Positions 49,899-57,609 of a DNA stretch of 64,000 nucleotides are shown here, in pieces. The stretch spans positions 4,960,001 through 5,024,000 of the forward strand of contig NZ_CP107989.1 of assembly GCF_041435015.1 (NCBI RefSeq), written 5' to 3'. The stretch's first letter is position 1. The number at the start of each line of letters is the position of its first letter. The notes under the pieces were generated by a model, which did no database searches, was not told the DNA's origin, and was given only the letters and a program-made list of their open reading frames with translations. This DNA is from Streptomyces canus (GTDB lineage: Bacteria; Actinomycetota; Actinomycetes; Streptomycetales; Streptomycetaceae). The position numbers and the translations under genes are program-made.

Positions 49899-49940
49899 CA
49901 GCTATGCAGGAGACCCCGCCCCCGCCTACGGTGGGCGGGC

Positions 49941-50124
49941 CGTGGTGCTCGGGAAGCCGGTGACGACCCCTCAAAGGTCCATGCCGGTGCGGCCCTCGCC
50001 ACTGTGATCGGGGAGTTTCCCTCCCACGTCCCTCGCGGGACAGCCACTGGCCGTCACCATCGGGCCGGGAAGGCGGGCAGGGAAACGCACGACCCGTAAG
50101 CCAGGAGACCGGCCACGGCAGCTC
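49941..50124 (+). ncRNA. Cobalamin (B12) riboswitch
   Basis: The order of conserved blocks is diagnostic: GGGAAGCCGGTGA, then GCCACTGTGATCGGGGAG, then GCCACTGG, CCGGGAAGGCGGG and finally AAGCCAGGAGACCGGCC (the B12 box). It lies in the leader of the cobalt transporter gene and should reduce its expression when adenosylcobalamin is plentiful. Confidence 0.95.
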
Positions 50125-50160
50125 ACGCGTTCATCCACGAGGTGCTGGAGTGACCACCGT

Positions 50161-51255
50161 ATGACCGATCCTGCGCTGCCCGAGACCGCCGCCGCCTCCT
50201 TCCGCTGGCGACGCGAGGACACCGTCAAGACGGTCGGTCTGATGGCCGCGATAGCCGCTCTGCACGTCGTCGCCTTCGGCATCCTCTTTCTGCTGGTCGT
50301 CCCGGAGCACTACGAGGTGGGCGACAAGGCCTTCGGCATCGGACTCGGCATCACCGCCTACACCCTCGGTATGCGGCACGCCTTCGACGCCGACCACATC
50401 GCCGCGATCGACAACACCACGCGCAAGCTGATGGCGGACGGCAAGCGGCCGGTGTCCGGGGGGTTCTGGTTCGCGCTCGGGCACTCCAGTGTCGTGGTCG
50501 TGCTCGCCGCGCTGATCGCCGGCGGCACCCAGCTGGCCGGCAAGGTCATGAACGAGGGGTCACGCACCCACCAGGTGCTCGGATTTCTCGGTACGACGGT
50601 CTCCGGGTCGTTCCTCTATCTCATCGCCGCTCTCAACCTGGTCGCCCTGATGGGCATCCTGAAGGTCTTCCGGGCGATGCGGGAGGGGACGTACGACGAG
50701 AAGCAGCTGGAGCAGCATCTCGACTCGCGCGGCTTCATGAACCGGATTCTCGGGCGGCTCACCAAGTCCATCACCCGGCCGGGGCAGATGTATCCGCTGG
50801 GCTTCCTGTTCGGGCTCGGCTTCGACACGGCCACGGAAGTGACCCTGATGGTGATGGCCGGGTCGGGCGCGGCCGCGGGTCTTCCCTGGTACGCCATCCT
50901 CTGTCTGCCGCTGCTCTTCGCCGCCGGCATGAGCCTGTTCGACACCCTCGACGGCACGTTCATGAACTTCGCCTACCAGTGGGCCTTCTCCAACCCCGTC
51001 CGCAAGGTCTTCTACAACCTCGCCATCACCGGGCTGTCCATCGCGGTCGCCTTCTTCATCGGCACGATCGAGCTCGTCGGCGTCCTGCACGACAAGTTCG
51101 ACCTCACCGACGCCCTCACCACCTGGATCGCCGACATCGATCTCGACAACGTCGGTTACGTCATCGTCGGCCTGTTCGTGGTGGTGTGGGCGGCGGCGAT
51201 CGCCTACTGGCGGCTCGCGAAGGTGGAGCAGCGGTGGGGCGTCAGCAGTTCTTGA
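50161..51255 (+). CDS. NiCoT-family nickel/cobalt transporter, probably cobalt
   Basis: The 364-residue protein has eight membrane segments and the class II NiCoT signature RHAFDADHIAAIDN (HX4DH), followed by FWFALGHSSVVVVLAAL and LGFLFGLGFDTATEVTLMVM. It imports Co2+ or Ni2+ with high affinity. The B12 riboswitch in its leader indicates that the physiological metal is cobalt for cobalamin synthesis. The divergent ArsR protein probably adds metal-dependent repression. Confidence 0.95.
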   Translation: MTDPALPETAAASFRWRREDTVKTVGLMAAIAALHVVAFGILFLLVVPEHYEVGDKAFGIGLGITAYTLGMRHAFDADHIAAIDNTTRKLMADGKRPVSGGFWFALGHSSVVVVLAALIAGGTQLAGKVMNEGSRTHQVLGFLGTTVSGSFLYLIAALNLVALMGILKVFRAMREGTYDEKQLEQHLDSRGFMNRILGRLTKSITRPGQMYPLGFLFGLGFDTATEVTLMVMAGSGAAAGLPWYAILCLPLLFAAGMSLFDTLDGTFMNFAYQWAFSNPVRKVFYNLAITGLSIAVAFFIGTIELVGVLHDKFDLTDALTTWIADIDLDNVGYVIVGLFVVVWAAAIAYWRLAKVEQRWGVSSS

Positions 51256-51268
51256 GGGACCCGGGTGG

Positions 51269-52231
51269 TCAGGCCCCCTCCACCGCCGTCAGCCACAGCT
51301 TCACGTACCGCTCCACGTCGACGCCCAACCCCACGTCCACGAGGGTCACTTCACGTTCGCCCTCGTGGATCTCGGACTCGCCGGGACGGCGGCGGCGGTC
51401 GACGACGGTCTGGCCGCGGGTCGGGCCCGGGGCCAGGCTCACCTCCACCGGCAGGAGTTCGGTGGTCAGGCCGTCCGGGTCGACGACCGCGCAGACCGCG
51501 CCCGCGTCGCCGAGGCCGCCGGTGGGGGTGGGATCGCCGGTAGCGGCCGGGTCGCGGTGGGCGAGGAGTTCCCCGGCCATGCGAAGGGACGGCTCCGAAC
51601 TAGCCCGCAGCCGCTCGACGTCGGCGGCGGGGACGACGACCCGCTCGAACACGTCCAAGCCGTACATCGTGATCGGCACCCCAGCGGTGAGCAGCACGGC
51701 GGCCGCCTCGGGATCGTGCCAGACGTTGAACTCCGCGACGGGCGTGGCGTTCCCGGTCGCCACCGCGCCGCCCATGAACACGATCCGCTCGATGTTCCGC
51801 ACCACGTCCGGGTGCGTACGAAGGAGCAGCGCGATGTTGGTGAGCGGCGCGGTCGGGATCAGCGTGACCGGGCGGGGCGAGGCGAGGATCTCCCGCCTGA
51901 GCAGGGTCACCGCGTCCACGTCCACCGCCACCCGGGTCGGCGCGGGCAGCCCCAGGTCACCCATGCCGTCGAGGCCGTGCACGTGCTGCGCGGTGCGCAC
52001 GGGCTCGATCAGCGGCCGTGCGGCACCCCGGGCGACGGGGATGTCCCCGGCCCCGGCCTGCTCCAGGACGGTCAGCGTGTTGCGGACGACGCCGTCGACG
52101 TCGGTGTTCCCGGCGACACAGGTGACCGCGCGCAGGTCGATGCCCGGATGCCGTACGGCGAACAACAGGGCCAGGGCGTCGTCGACGCCGGTGTCGCAGT
52201 CGATGATCACCGGGATGGGCTGACCGGTCAC
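51269..52231 (-). CDS. Nucleoside hydrolase (IunH family)
   Basis: The 320-residue protein has the calcium-binding N-terminus PVIIDCDTGVDDALALLFAV, LIPTAPLTNIALLLR, VFMGGAVATGNATPVAEFNV with WHDPEAA, and GLGDAGAVCAVVDP. It hydrolyses ribonucleosides to base and ribose for salvage. GTG 52231 has AAAGGA upstream; GTG 52264 is an alternative that would place the start within a tandem duplication. It is convergent with the cobalt transporter gene. Confidence 0.92.
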   Translation of the reverse strand: MTGQPIPVIIDCDTGVDDALALLFAVRHPGIDLRAVTCVAGNTDVDGVVRNTLTVLEQAGAGDIPVARGAARPLIEPVRTAQHVHGLDGMGDLGLPAPTRVAVDVDAVTLLRREILASPRPVTLIPTAPLTNIALLLRTHPDVVRNIERIVFMGGAVATGNATPVAEFNVWHDPEAAAVLLTAGVPITMYGLDVFERVVVPAADVERLRASSEPSLRMAGELLAHRDPAATGDPTPTGGLGDAGAVCAVVDPDGLTTELLPVEVSLAPGPTRGQTVVDRRRRPGESEIHEGEREVTLVDVGLGVDVERYVKLWLTAVEGA

Positions 52232-52247
52232 GGCGGGGGTCCTTTCG

Positions 52248-52273
52248 TCACTGGCGTACGTCACTGGCGTACG
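52248..52273. repeat. Perfect 13-bp tandem duplication
   Basis: TCACTGGCGTACG occurs twice back to back just upstream of the nucleoside hydrolase gene. Confidence 0.9.
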
Positions 52274-52282
52274 GAACCGACC

Positions 52283-53515
52283 TTACGCAGCCGCCCAGAG
52301 TTCGGTCCCGCGATCACCGGCCCGGGCACCGATCCGCCCCAGCAGCTCGTCGACCGGCACGGCTCCTGGTCTACGGCCGTCCCGCAGTCGTACGGCCGCA
52401 CAGCCGGCGCCGGCCTCCCGCTCCCCGATCACCGCCTGGTACGGCACGAGGCGCGCGGCGCGGACGCGGGCACCGAGGGTGCCGTGGCCGGGGCCCGAGA
52501 GTTCGGCCCGGATACCGCGCGCTTCGGCCCGCCGTACGACGTCATGAGCCCGTTCCTCCTGGGCGTCGCCCACCGGCAGAACCACCAGCTGTACGGGGGC
52601 GAGCCACACGGGGAAGGCGCCACCGTGCGCCTCGATGAGATGCGCGACCAGCCGCTCCACACTCCCGATGATGCTGCGGTGGACCATCACCGGGCGGTGT
52701 TTGCCGCCGTCGGGGCCGATGTAGTGGAGGTCGAAGCGTTCGGGCTGGTGGAAGTCGATCTGGACGGTGGAGAGGGTGGACTCCCGTCCGGCCGGGTCGG
52801 TGATCTGCACGTCGATCTTGGGGCCGTAGAAGGCGGCCTCGCCTTCGGCGGACTCGTACTCGACGCCGTCCAGGACCTCTTCGAGGAGGTCGGTGGCGCG
52901 GCGCCAGAGCGCGGGGTCCGCGACGTACTTGCCGGAGTCTCCCGGGAGGGACAGACGGAACCTGGACGCTCGGATGCCGAGGTCGTCGTAGGCGCGCCGG
53001 ATGAGTTCGAGGGCGGCGCGGGCCTCCTCGACCGCCTGTTCCAGGGTGCAGAAGATGTGGGCGTCGTTGAGCTGGATGGAGCGGACGCGGGTGAGACCGC
53101 CGAGGACGCCCGACAGTTCGGAGCGGTACATGCCACCCAACTCGGCGATCCTGAGGGGCAGTTCACGGTAACTGTGGGACCGTGACCGATAGATGAGCGC
53201 GTGGTGCGGGCAGAGGCTGGGCCGCAGCACCACCTCCTCGCCGCCCAGCCGCATCGGCGGGAACATGTCGTCGCCGTAGTGCGACCAGTGCCCGGAGATC
53301 TCGTACAGCTCCCGCTTCCCGAGCACCGGCGAGTACACATGCCGGTACCCGGCGGCCCGCTCCGCCTCCCTGACGTACTCCTCCAGGACATGCCGTACGA
53401 CGGCCCCGTCGGGCAGCCAGTACGGCAGCCCCGCGCCCATCAGCGGATCGGTGTCGAACAGCTCGAGCTCACGACCGAGTCGGCGGTGGTCGTGCATGGG
53501 GTTCATGGGGTTCAT
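52283..53515 (-). CDS. Short threonyl-tRNA synthetase without TGS and editing domains
   Basis: The 410-residue class II synthetase has the ThrRS catalytic core (LGRELELFDTDPLMGAGLPY; RPSLCPHHALIY with the zinc Cys; HIFCTLEQAVEE; AFYGPKIDVQ; VMVHRSIIGSVERLVAHLIE) and an anticodon-binding domain (VWLAPVQLVVLPVGDAQEER). The N-terminal TGS and editing domains of standard ThrRS are missing, so it cannot clear mischarged Ser-tRNA. It is probably a secondary enzyme. Translation can begin at any of three ATG codons in an ATGAACCCC repeat; GAGGGAG favours ATG 53515. The leader contains a Thr-codon attenuator. Confidence 0.93.
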   Translation of the reverse strand: MNPMNPMHDHRRLGRELELFDTDPLMGAGLPYWLPDGAVVRHVLEEYVREAERAAGYRHVYSPVLGKRELYEISGHWSHYGDDMFPPMRLGGEEVVLRPSLCPHHALIYRSRSHSYRELPLRIAELGGMYRSELSGVLGGLTRVRSIQLNDAHIFCTLEQAVEEARAALELIRRAYDDLGIRASRFRLSLPGDSGKYVADPALWRRATDLLEEVLDGVEYESAEGEAAFYGPKIDVQITDPAGRESTLSTVQIDFHQPERFDLHYIGPDGGKHRPVMVHRSIIGSVERLVAHLIEAHGGAFPVWLAPVQLVVLPVGDAQEERAHDVVRRAEARGIRAELSGPGHGTLGARVRAARLVPYQAVIGEREAGAGCAAVRLRDGRRPGAVPVDELLGRIGARAGDRGTELWAAA

Positions 53516-53561
53516 GGGGTTCTCCCTCGCGGTGGGGGGCGAGGAACCGACGGGAACGACA

Positions 53562-53589
53562 AAGCCCCGGGGCACTCGCCCCGGGGCTT
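53562..53589 (-). terminator. Attenuator terminator in the ThrRS leader
   Basis: Perfect 12-bp stem AAGCCCCGGGGC / GCCCCGGGGCTT with a 4-base loop, followed by TTTGTC on the minus strand. It lies between the leader peptide and the synthetase start, so it can stop transcription before the gene. Confidence 0.9.
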
Positions 53590-53605
53590 CGGACTGCGTC
53601 AGCTG

Positions 53606-53674
53606 TCAGCGCACCGGGACCTGCTCCGGCGTCGTCGTGATCGACGGGATGGCGATGGCTTGAGCACGCTGCAT
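53606..53674 (-). CDS. Threonine-rich leader peptide of the ThrRS gene
   Basis: The 22-codon frame runs from ATG 53674 to TGA 53606. It encodes MQRAQAIAIPS, then Ile followed by three consecutive ACG Thr codons, then PEQVPVR. The strong attenuator hairpin begins 17 bases after the stop. This is the classic arrangement for ribosome-mediated attenuation: stalling at Thr codons when charged tRNA-Thr is scarce would favour an alternative fold and let polymerase continue into the synthetase gene. The alternative fold has not been computed. Confidence 0.85.
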   Translation of the reverse strand: MQRAQAIAIPSITTTPEQVPVR

Positions 53675-53784
53675 GGGGTGAGGGTAGGGGAGGGGTGGGG
53701 GTGGGGCGAAGGGTTTTTTTGGTGCGGTGGGGTGGGGTGACCTGTGCGGAGCTGCCCGCGTCTGCTGCGGTTGTCCGGAGTGGG

Positions 53785-54073: not shown

Positions 54074-54259
54074 TCAGGCGTGGGCGTGGTGCAGGGAGCG
54101 TATGAAGGTGGTCCAGGTGTCGGGGACGACCTGGAGTATCGGTCCGTGGGGGGTCTTGGAGTCGCGGACGGCGATGGTGCCGGGGCGGTTGCGGGCGACT
54201 TCGACGCACTCGCCGTTGCCGCTGCTGTGGCTGGACTTGGCGAACTCGAAGGGCGGCAC
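54074..54259 (-). CDS. DUF397 protein
   Basis: The 61-residue protein is a typical DUF397: FAKSSHSSGNGECVEVARNR, then GTIAVRDSKTPHGPILQV and TFIRSL. DUF397 proteins nearly always lie next to an XRE/DUF5753 regulator and are thought to modulate it, as with the WhiJ locus. It follows the regulator gene with overlap or near-overlap; GTG 54259 has AAGGAG eight bases upstream. Confidence 0.9.
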   Translation of the reverse strand: MPPFEFAKSSHSSGNGECVEVARNRPGTIAVRDSKTPHGPILQVVPDTWTTFIRSLHHAHA

Positions 54260-54261
54260 GG

Positions 54262-55143
54262 TCACAGCTCCTTGCGGATGCGTTCGATCAACTCGACGGA
54301 ATCGTGAAGAGCGAGTCCGTTCCTTGCGATCCGCTCGAACTTGGTGTTGTGCCGTGCGGCGTCCGCCTCGCTCTCCAGCCACAGCGTAGACGAGGTCGTA
54401 TCCATGTAGACCACGTCCATCGCGCCGGGTTCGGCGAAGGAGACGACGCTGAAGGCGCTGGTCATGCCGGGGTGCGAGCCCGCGAGGAACGGGACCACCT
54501 GAAGCTTGACGTTGGGGAGCCGGGACGCCTCGACCAAGTGCTCCAGTTGGGTCCGCATGACCTCGCGGCCGCCGACCAGTTGACGCAGCGCCCCCTCACC
54601 GACAACGGTCCACAGGCCGAGCGGGCTGCTGTCCGTCAGCCGCCCCTGCCGGGCGACCTTCGCCTCCACGAACCGCTCGATCTCACTTGGCTCGTCCCAG
54701 TCGGCGTTGCCGATCGCCAGCGCCCTGGCGTAGTCCGGCGTCTGCAGCAAGCCCGGTACGAAGGCCCCTTGCCAGGTGCGGATGCTGGTCGCGATGTCCT
54801 CCAGGGCGACGTACTCCACCAGGGAACGCAGCTCGGGGTACTGGTTCCACCACCCCTTGGCCTTGCGGCGCTCCCGGTCGGTCCTGGCGAGGCTCAACAA
54901 CCGCTCCACGGCCTTCGGGTCGGTCACCCCGTACAGCTCGCAAAGGATCTTGATGTCGGGATCGCGGAACGGCACCCACCCGCGCTCCATCTTGGCCACC
55001 TTGGCGGCCGTCGCCGACAGTGCCTCAGCAGCCTGCGGCTGGGTCAGGCCGGCCCGGTCCCGCAGCCTCAGCAGTTCACCGCCCAACTTGCGCGCGAGGA
55101 CGGTGGATACGCGGGTTCCGCGCGTGAACTGGCCTGTGGACAC
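54262..55143 (-). CDS. XRE-family regulator with DUF5753 domain (WhiJ-like)
   Basis: The 293-residue protein has an N-terminal helix-turn-helix (LRDRAGLTQPQAAEALSATA; AAKVAKMERG) and a DUF5753 domain (WQGAFVPGLLQTPDYARALA; LRQLVGGREVMRTQLEHLVE; DTTSSTLWLESEADAARHN). This is the WhiJ-type architecture linked to control of development and secondary metabolism. A DUF397 gene downstream and a divergent RsbW-like ATPase gene complete the usual trio. AGGAGG lies upstream of GTG 55143. A perfect palindrome in the divergent promoter is a candidate operator. Confidence 0.93.
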   Translation of the reverse strand: MSTGQFTRGTRVSTVLARKLGGELLRLRDRAGLTQPQAAEALSATAAKVAKMERGWVPFRDPDIKILCELYGVTDPKAVERLLSLARTDRERRKAKGWWNQYPELRSLVEYVALEDIATSIRTWQGAFVPGLLQTPDYARALAIGNADWDEPSEIERFVEAKVARQGRLTDSSPLGLWTVVGEGALRQLVGGREVMRTQLEHLVEASRLPNVKLQVVPFLAGSHPGMTSAFSVVSFAEPGAMDVVYMDTTSSTLWLESEADAARHNTKFERIARNGLALHDSVELIERIRKEL

Positions 55144-56773: not shown

Positions 56774-57609
56774 AGGTTGTCCCGTATGGGGCGTGAGCTA
56801 TCCGGTGAGGGCCAGGTTGTGGAGCCGGGCGATGCCGAGCATGGCCTGGTGAACGCCGTTGCCCTTGAGGCGGCAGTCCCGAAGGATCTTCCAGTTCTTC
56901 AGCCGGGACAGGGCGTGTTCGACTCGTGCCCGTGCCCGGCGGTGGACGGCGTTCTCTGCTTCCTGTTGCGGGCTGAGGTGTCTCTGGCCTCGTCGCCTGC
57001 GGTGCGGGATGAGAAGGCCAGTGCCCTGGTAGCCACCGTCGGCGATGGTCGGGGCACCGCGGCAGACCCGGTCCACACCGGACTCGGTGAACGCCCGGCA
57101 GTCGTTGCGACTGCCGGGCAGCGGCAAGCCGATCGCCACCACCAGGCGGCTGTTGGCGTCGATGACGACCTGCAGATTCGTCGAGTACCGATAGTTCTTG
57201 CTGGACGCGGCGACGCTGCGGTCCCGGGTAGGCACCAAGGTGCCGTCGACGATGTAGACAGTGTCCCTGCGCGGACGTCGGGCCGGCGCGATGGCCAACA
57301 GCGGTGCCAGGTGATCGAGGATACGGTCGGCCGCGGACTTCGAGACCCCGAACAACGGTGCCACCTGCCGCAACGTCAGGTTCGTGCGCCAGTACGTCGC
57401 CACCAGCAACACCCGGTCCTCCAGCGGCAACCGCCAGGGACGGCCCCGCTGAACGTCACCCCCGCGACGCCGCACCGACGCCACCAGCCTGGCGAACTGC
57501 ACCTCGCTCAACCCGGAGAACGGCTCGATCCACTTCGGATCATCAGCTGAAATCACCCCACCCATACCCAGCCAACGCACCAACCACCCCACCGGTTACG
57601 GGACAACCT
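56774..57609 (-). mobile_element. IS5-family element (IS427-like), 836 bp
   Basis: Perfect 13-bp terminal inverted repeats AGGTTGTCCCGTA / TACGGGACAACCT are flanked by the 4-bp target duplication CTAG at 56770-56773 and 57610-57613. One transposase gene is inside. Confidence 0.93.
56798..57565 (-). CDS. IS5-family transposase (DDE_Tnp_4 type)
   Basis: The 255-residue transposase has an N-terminal helix-turn-helix (NLTLRQVAPLFGVSKSAADR) and the DDE triad: Asp in VYIVDGTLVPTRD, Asp in TIADGGYQGTG and Glu in ARARVEHALSRLKNWKILRD. It looks intact and probably active. It may start at ATG 57565 or at a GTG nine codons upstream. Confidence 0.92.
   Translation of the reverse strand: MGGVISADDPKWIEPFSGLSEVQFARLVASVRRRGGDVQRGRPWRLPLEDRVLLVATYWRTNLTLRQVAPLFGVSKSAADRILDHLAPLLAIAPARRPRRDTVYIVDGTLVPTRDRSVAASSKNYRYSTNLQVVIDANSRLVVAIGLPLPGSRNDCRAFTESGVDRVCRGAPTIADGGYQGTGLLIPHRRRRGQRHLSPQQEAENAVHRRARARVEHALSRLKNWKILRDCRLKGNGVHQAMLGIARLHNLALTG

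Follow-up and report, generated by a model that had tools for sequence, protein, structure and literature searches.

A conserved threonine-codon leader and a predicted helix relay upstream of an auxiliary threonyl-tRNA synthetase gene in Streptomyces

In the window analysed here, a 64,000-nt stretch of the 10.7-Mb genome of Streptomyces canus, the gene of a short threonyl-tRNA synthetase (ThrRS2; thrS2) is almost certainly controlled by a threonine-codon attenuator, as judged from sequence comparison. The leader, its Thr codons, their spacing and a hairpin (T) are conserved, and two further pairings downstream (Q and S) covary. The arrangement suggests a ribosome-mediated attenuator that would sense charged tRNA-Thr and act through a relay of six RNA segments on thrS2 translation initiation, a mechanism towards which we lean with some reserve. 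The leader-peptide attenuation proposed in the initial annotation is strongly supported by the kept Thr codons, the 9-nt spacing and the antiterminator. The simple intrinsic termination at a T-run that it also proposed is not supported; an SD-hiding relay is predicted downstream instead.

Organization of the Locus

The locus lies on the minus strand, with the 22-codon leader ORF, a gap of 14 nt, hairpin T and 44 nt in this order before the ThrRS start codon (ATG 53515), which is preceded by the Shine–Dalgarno (SD) sequence GAGGGAG (Table 1). The claim of a 22-codon frame with three consecutive Thr (ACG) codons was borne out by the leader at 53674-53606 (-), with its ATG start at 53674. The perfect 12-bp hairpin was likewise recovered, as 12 consecutive Watson–Crick pairs, or 14 pairs with one G-U and the closing C-G, and the 47 bases given between the hairpin and the ThrRS start were close to the measured distance. 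The T-run described after the hairpin was an error: all three T of CTTTG are stem bases, and the tail reads TCGTTCCC. The folding energy of the leader region was better than that of 200/200 shuffles (z = -4.1). In addition, a mechanical frame of 430 aa opens at GTG 53575; it overlaps hairpin T, and this GTG is unlikely to be the real start.

Table 1. Features of the thrS2 leader and gene, with positions in the window.
Feature	Position	Strand	Basis
A-run at the position of the WblC/WhiB7 site; strict GAAAWY not matched	53714..53720	-	motif comparison
Predicted -10 element TACCCT, for a leaderless transcript from the leader ATG	53681..53686	-	motif placement
Leader ORF, thrL-like, MQRAQAIAIPSITTTPEQVPVR followed by stop	53606..53674	-	ORF list; conserved in relatives
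Segment 1, at the start of the leader; forms protector helix 1:2 (-14.8 kcal/mol) with segment 2	53663..53673	-	folding
Three Thr control codons, ACG ACG ACG	53630..53638	-	identical in 79/80 loci
Segment 2, GTC CCG GTG CGC (VPVR); partner of segment 1 or 3	53609..53620	-	9-nt gap from Thr codons
Segment 3, 5' arm of hairpin T; pairs with segment 2 in antiterminator P	53578..53591	-	folding
Segment 4, T loop, 3' arm and last GGGGC of 5' arm	53560..53582	-	folding, covariation
Segment 5, CGGTTCCTCGCCCC; alternative partner of segments 4 (in Q) and 6 (in S)	53536..53549	-	covariation, folding
Segment 6, GCGAGGGAGAACCCCATG; SD and start codon, hidden in S	53513..53530	-	covariation
Short ThrRS (410 aa), thrS2-like, with a catalytic core and an anticodon-binding domain	52283..53515	-	PF00587, PF03129, TIGR00418

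Other features were observed in the neighbourhood. A cobalamin riboswitch (49926-50131, +) lies directly 5' of a NicT-type nickel/cobalt transporter gene (50161-51255), and a nucleoside hydrolase family gene (51269-52264, -) lies directly downstream of the ThrRS gene on the same strand. Upstream of the leader, a DUF397 protein is encoded next to an HTH/DUF5753 protein (54074-55143, -). The frame 56798-57592 (-) resembles a DDE transposase, judged by eye.

Conservation and Distribution

The close set comprised the best 80 of 553 relatives, 79 of which are titled Streptomyces and one 'Actinobacteria bacterium'. The leader was present in all of these best 80 relatives, and its Thr run read ACG ACG ACG in 79 loci and ACG ACG GCG in one. 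Conservation of the run across Streptomyces, which the initial annotation had named as a check, thus held, with ACG ACG invariant in 80/80 relatives. The codons 3' of the run were CCG (80 of 80 loci), GTC (77), CCG (79), GCG (78), CGC (74) and TGA (75), and those on its 5' side differed in kind and number. Among 60 further Streptomyces regions, the leader was recognized in 54 by the ORF pattern and in 57 by the Thr-codon core. The three regions without the core were L110, which has lost the leader and kept the hairpins, and L136 and L137, which belong to extra ThrRS copies.

A covariance model (R1) built on the leader core and the hairpin gave strong matches (E <1e-9) in 77/150 Streptomyces genomes. 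Among the matches listed, 78 ThrRS2 copies (at least 57% identity) occurred in 76 of the 150 genomes, and R1 lay 28-208 nt upstream on the same strand in 75/78 of these listed copies (75/76 genomes). The listed copies without R1 were that of G041 and extra copies in G094 and G014, and R1 without a listed ThrRS2 was seen in G099 and G119, the latter being a relic. In 197 genomes of the order, 13 strong matches were found outside Streptomyces, 12 in a second family and one in another genus of the same family as Streptomyces; 12 of these loci were fetched, and all were upstream of ThrRS2 (66.5-78.8% identity). Furthermore, 246 genomes of the class gave 27 strong matches outside the order, in three further families, and weak matches in two additional families. 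The 20 loci fetched from this search (19 strong, one weaker) all precede ThrRS2 at 65.6-76.7% identity. The pairing of leader and ThrRS2 was found in four families beyond the own one, and the core ACG ACG ACG was present in 32/32 loci from outside Streptomyces, which form the distant set (four other families and one sister genus).

Eight other model matches (L191-L198) were fetched, six of them without a ThrRS at E 1e-10. These six were read as chance matches (L193, L194 and L196), a bare hairpin (L195) and decayed leaders (L191 and L197). In the remaining two, L192 and L198, the leader stands before a ThrRS2 that is broken or truncated. L191, L192, L197 and L198 are relics of loss or duplication.

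Hairpin T, Antiterminator P and Protector Helix

Hairpin T (53591-53560, -) had a folding energy of -30.6 kcal/mol when folded alone, and the antiterminator P reached -22.0 kcal/mol in the window. The distance from the last Thr codon to segment 2 (the VPAR codons) was 9 nt in 73/73 parsed loci. When the stretch from segment 2 to the loop was folded, the P stem appeared in the lowest-energy structure of 73/73 parsed loci, so that the antiterminator pairing for which the initial annotation had suggested a folding check was indeed found. The other 7 of the 80 loci (L007, L028, L036, L060, L069, L072 and L077) were unparsed for P and spacing. Since P hardly varies, it is without covariation support.

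With the usual ribosome footprint, segment 2 is accessible when the ribosome stalls at the Thr codons; at the stop codon, the ribosome covers segment 2 and T is free. The predicted short ORF carries a run of codons that matches the synthetase it precedes, and the antiterminator and attenuator hairpins exclude each other and are in register with the predicted stall site. The predicted T, P and 1:2 thus have the textbook arrangement of an attenuator. In two loci, L069 and L072, T is shortened, the loop and inner arms being absent and leaving GAAGCCCCGGGGCTT; the leader and ThrRS2 are kept there.

Downstream Pairings Q and S

In helix Q (4:5), the T loop and its inner flanks, including GGGGCGAG (53582-53575) of segment 4, pair over 9-14 bp with the segment just 5' of the SD. 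A loop-only kissing pseudoknot is less likely for Q because of this length and the loop flanks taken in. In helix S (5:6), which alone had -13.1 kcal/mol in the window, segment 5 pairs with the SD/start region. Of the segment 5 bases engaged in Q, 69% on average were shared with S, and S paired at least half of the SD bases in 135/136 sequences; therefore, Q and S are largely mutually exclusive.

Covariation was evaluated by permutation tests in which partners were swapped between sequences, with the 4:6 pairing as a control. The first test gave 0/5000 for both Q and S with 77 loci, and 27/5000 and 6/5000, respectively, with 13 representatives. In the larger test with 136 of 141 sequences (L036, L069, L072, L136 and L137 were dropped), Q (z = -9.2) and S (z = -8.2) each gave 0/10000, and the control gave 3956/10000. 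For 37 representatives at <85% identity, the values for Q, S and the control were 0/10000, 2/10000 and 4105/10000, respectively; for 13 representatives at <78% identity, Q gave 2/10000 and S was weak (376/10000), the control itself being low (76/10000). The distant set (n = 32) gave 0/10000 for Q, 0/10000 for S and 3053/10000 for the control, and its 13 representatives 22/10000, 43/10000 and 3529/10000. An SD-hiding helix and its competitor were thus both found to covary, with S weak at <78% identity.

A 24-row alignment, hand-picked from one structural type, showed 96.6% standard pairs for Q, against 40.3-47.1% when slid, and 91.3% for S, against 30.8-61.2% when slid. Doubly changed cells numbered 6 in Q (reached by 2/500 shuffles) and 9 in S (1/500). 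In the same alignment, neither the pairs with double changes (279/500 for Q and 207/500 for S) nor the further pair types (468/500 and 500/500) were above shuffles. One S pair was broken in 6/24 rows, mostly rows keeping Q. A joint change from GCGAG/CTCGC/GCGAG to GCAAG/CTTGC/GCAAG in the loop, segment 5 and the SD region was seen in L093, L101, L107 and L149, which look closely related, and it is perhaps one event. In L103, the loop change was kept and the full SD change was absent.

The T loop read CGAGT in 98/136 sequences. Because most loops are alike, the Q signal rests on a minority. The own Q pairing was above the column median in 9/77 loci. Tested singly, with L069, L072 and L077 dropped, Q beat shuffles (p<0.05) in 31/77 loci and in none of L004-L011, the nearest eight relatives of the window. 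In 65/76 loci, a set without L023, L069, L072 and L077, SD accessibility was lower with the native upstream sequence than with a shuffled one. Under equilibrium folding, the mean SD accessibility was 0.21 in both modelled states, and ON exceeded OFF in 37/76 loci. When P was forced, Q replaced S in 3/14.

Proposed Mechanism

Translation of the leader, the kinetic order of the helices, release of the start site, and initiation rather than termination as the main output are steps that we infer. The mRNA would be leaderless and begin with the ATG of the leader. When Thr-tRNA is sufficient, the ribosome would reach the stop codon and cover segment 2, T (3:4) would form, and segment 5 would fold on the SD/start region (S), giving the OFF state. 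A stall at the ACG codons would cover segment 1 and leave segment 2 free to capture segment 3 (P, 2:3). Segment 4 would then capture segment 5 (Q), and the thrS2 start site would be exposed, giving the ON state. When no ribosome is present, 1:2 would bring back OFF. OFF would thus consist of 1:2, 3:4 and 5:6, and ON of 2:3 and 4:5. Since the equilibrium models keep T and S, and P and Q overlap in GGGGC, the relay would need a co-transcriptional order, in which 2:3 would form first and 4:5 would follow before segment 6 is made.

The ThrRS2 Enzyme

Only PF00587 (class II core) and PF03129 (anticodon-binding) were found by Pfam on the 430-aa frame, and TIGR00418 was above its cut-off. The nearest solved relative by sequence was 1nyq, a 645-residue ThrRS that we take to be the Staphylococcus enzyme. 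Another ThrRS, with 43% identity to the short one, is encoded in a 688-aa open frame of the same genome, so the short ThrRS is an auxiliary copy. The initial annotation had described a stand-alone ThrRS gene with an attenuator; the gene is a second ThrRS copy.

The motif-assigned position of E. coli L489, a borrelidin contact, was Gln in 81/81 ThrRS2, and the single housekeeping copy examined, that of the same genome, had Leu there. Mutations of L489 raise the borrelidin Ki (PMC4389257). An obafluorin-type change at G463 was not seen, the motif-assigned position being Gly in 81/81 ThrRS2. Borrelidin resistance of ThrRS2 would be a guess, and an inducible back-up under ThrRS inhibition is a plausible role. 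Among the zinc ligands, the Cys was found in 81/81 ThrRS2, the second ligand was His in 68 (13 unmatched) and the third was His in 80 (1 unmatched). The thrS2 of Anabaena is under zinc-starvation (Zur) control (PMC6103462). Zur control of the Streptomyces gene was set aside; the zinc ligands are kept where the patterns matched.

Predicted Upstream Promoter

A TANNNT element 5-9 nt 5' of the leader start was found in 133/133 loci, against 1.5 expected in shuffles. A WblC/WhiB7 site was defined as GAAAWY 3 nt upstream of the -35 region together with a TANNNT -10 element, with the GAAAWY motif taken from PMC7157823. Strict GAAAWY at the right spacing occurred in 55/133 loci, against 0.01 expected; both this motif test and the TANNNT distance range were chosen after the sequences had been inspected. 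The window is not among the 55 loci: its -10 element is present, and an A-run stands in place of GAAAWY. In S. coelicolor, the list of WblC-activated genes includes thrS2, alaS2 and trpS (PMC7157823). Moreover, binding by sigma E during ethanol stress is given for SCO3778, named as a threonyl-tRNA synthetase gene (PMC10771440), and in our reading SCO3778 and thrS2 are one gene.

Terminator Question and Alternative Explanations

The main competitor of the relay is classical transcription attenuation, in which T would terminate without a U-tract (or with Rho), P would be the antiterminator and S would only tune translation. We regard it as the less probable account, though one that carries real weight. 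P, T and 1:2 stand in the arrangement such an attenuator would have, start-site release is absent in the equilibrium model, and attenuators have been predicted for Streptomyces trpS and leuS (PMC1262725). An intrinsic terminator consists of a GC-rich hairpin and a U-tract, and almost all of the hairpins here were without a U-tract. The 8 nt 3' of the stem held 0-4 T in 80 loci (a few stems misparsed), the longest T stretch was at most 2 in 32/32 distant loci, and no intrinsic terminator was found by a terminator scan of the window. A true T6 tract 3' of the hairpin was seen in one locus, L126 (G103), as transcription attenuation would have it. Against this account, termination is described as unclear in the RNA-seq study of S. 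lividans for want of a U-rich stretch (PMC8079986), and a T loop that covaries with sequence made only after T is left unexplained. The label of intrinsic terminator was rejected for T for want of a U-tract and kept as a rival output; termination at T may be an alternative or added output.

The leader might also sense ribosome-targeting antibiotics or slow translation generally, like the whiB7/wblC uORF, with the Thr codons being incidental. The listing of thrS2 as WblC-activated (PMC7157823) and the enrichment of the WblC-type promoter motif agree with this, but ACG ACG is fixed in 80/80 loci while the preceding codons vary, and the gene is a ThrRS, so that such general sensing appears improbable. 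A chance ORF beside an ordinary hairpin, with no regulatory role, would find some excuse in the many short ORFs expected in GC-rich DNA (70 of at least 20 aa in 6.5 kb). Codon-level conservation across families and the strict tie to one gene speak against chance, as does the second-best match within the own genome, at 28 bits vs 96, and the chance reading is in effect refuted by conservation.

Comparison with Known Systems

In S. lividans TK24, thrL (SLIV_19412) upstream of thrS (SLIV_19410) was reported in 2021 (PMC8079986). The printed peptide, MKRVRPFLETTPGFVPAR followed by stop, occurs letter for letter in L138 before ThrRS2, and the S. lividans thrL/thrS pair is the orthologue of the leader and gene described here. 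The two agree in the leaderless start, the single hairpin and the tail that is not U-rich. They differ in that the report covers one species and two Thr codons; its accessible part calls termination unclear and gives no antiterminator, Q/S pairing or distribution (PMC8079986). In 2005, attenuators were predicted for Streptomyces trpS and leuS, and the same survey reported that threonine operons lacked conserved RNA structures in their upstream regions (PMC1262725). The Streptomyces trpS, leuS and alaS genes resemble thrS2 as synthetase genes with cognate-codon leaders (PMC1262725, PMC8079986), and trpS and alaS2 are, like thrS2, among the genes listed as WblC-activated (PMC7157823). An attenuated ThrRS is thus less unusual in Streptomyces than initially annotated, with thrL known from S. 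lividans and attenuators predicted for trpS and leuS.

A trpS copy in the genome of the window (L200) is preceded by a leader, MTTRTCTQQWWAA followed by stop, with two adjacent Trp codons, and by GC-rich inverted repeats. Transcription attenuation of the indolmycin-resistant trpRS1 was reportedly described by Vecchione and Sello in 2010, and Lopatovskaya and others are said to have published a comparative survey of attenuation in the same year. In the translational attenuators of ermC and ermA, stalling of a ribosome on the leader rearranges the hairpins so that a hidden SD becomes free. The cue there is a drug, whereas here it is a codon run cognate to the synthetase, and an extra alternating helix pair is predicted here to link the leader and the start site. 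T-boxes bind tRNA directly, without a leader peptide. In an Rfam scan, the locus had no match at the gathering score, to a T-box or other family, and the only match elsewhere in the window was the cobalamin riboswitch. The actinobacterial ileS T-boxes are alike in that a synthetase gene is controlled by SD hiding (PMC1262725).

The leader and its link to Thr in S. lividans are already known, and so is thrS2 as a WblC target. The open-access literature searched contained the S. lividans thrL report and no Q/S relay, and as far as this literature shows, what is new is how widely the leader is distributed, together with the antiterminator model and the Q/S relay. The full picture that emerges is more tentative than the relay itself, and we would not yet put it at even chances: a relay of three alternating helices, shared by at least five actinomycete families, would connect ribosome stalling on Thr codons with the start codon of an auxiliary synthetase, without a terminator, and together with a WblC antibiotic-stress promoter it would form a two-key switch (stress AND uncharged tRNA) for a ThrRS whose borrelidin pocket is altered. 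If true, the relay would explain how the S. lividans thrL could work without a clear terminator, and it would provide a testable RNA mechanism for the amino-acid-specific control of a stress synthetase. It suggests that a second control, through the charging of their own tRNA, may act on WblC-activated spare synthetases.
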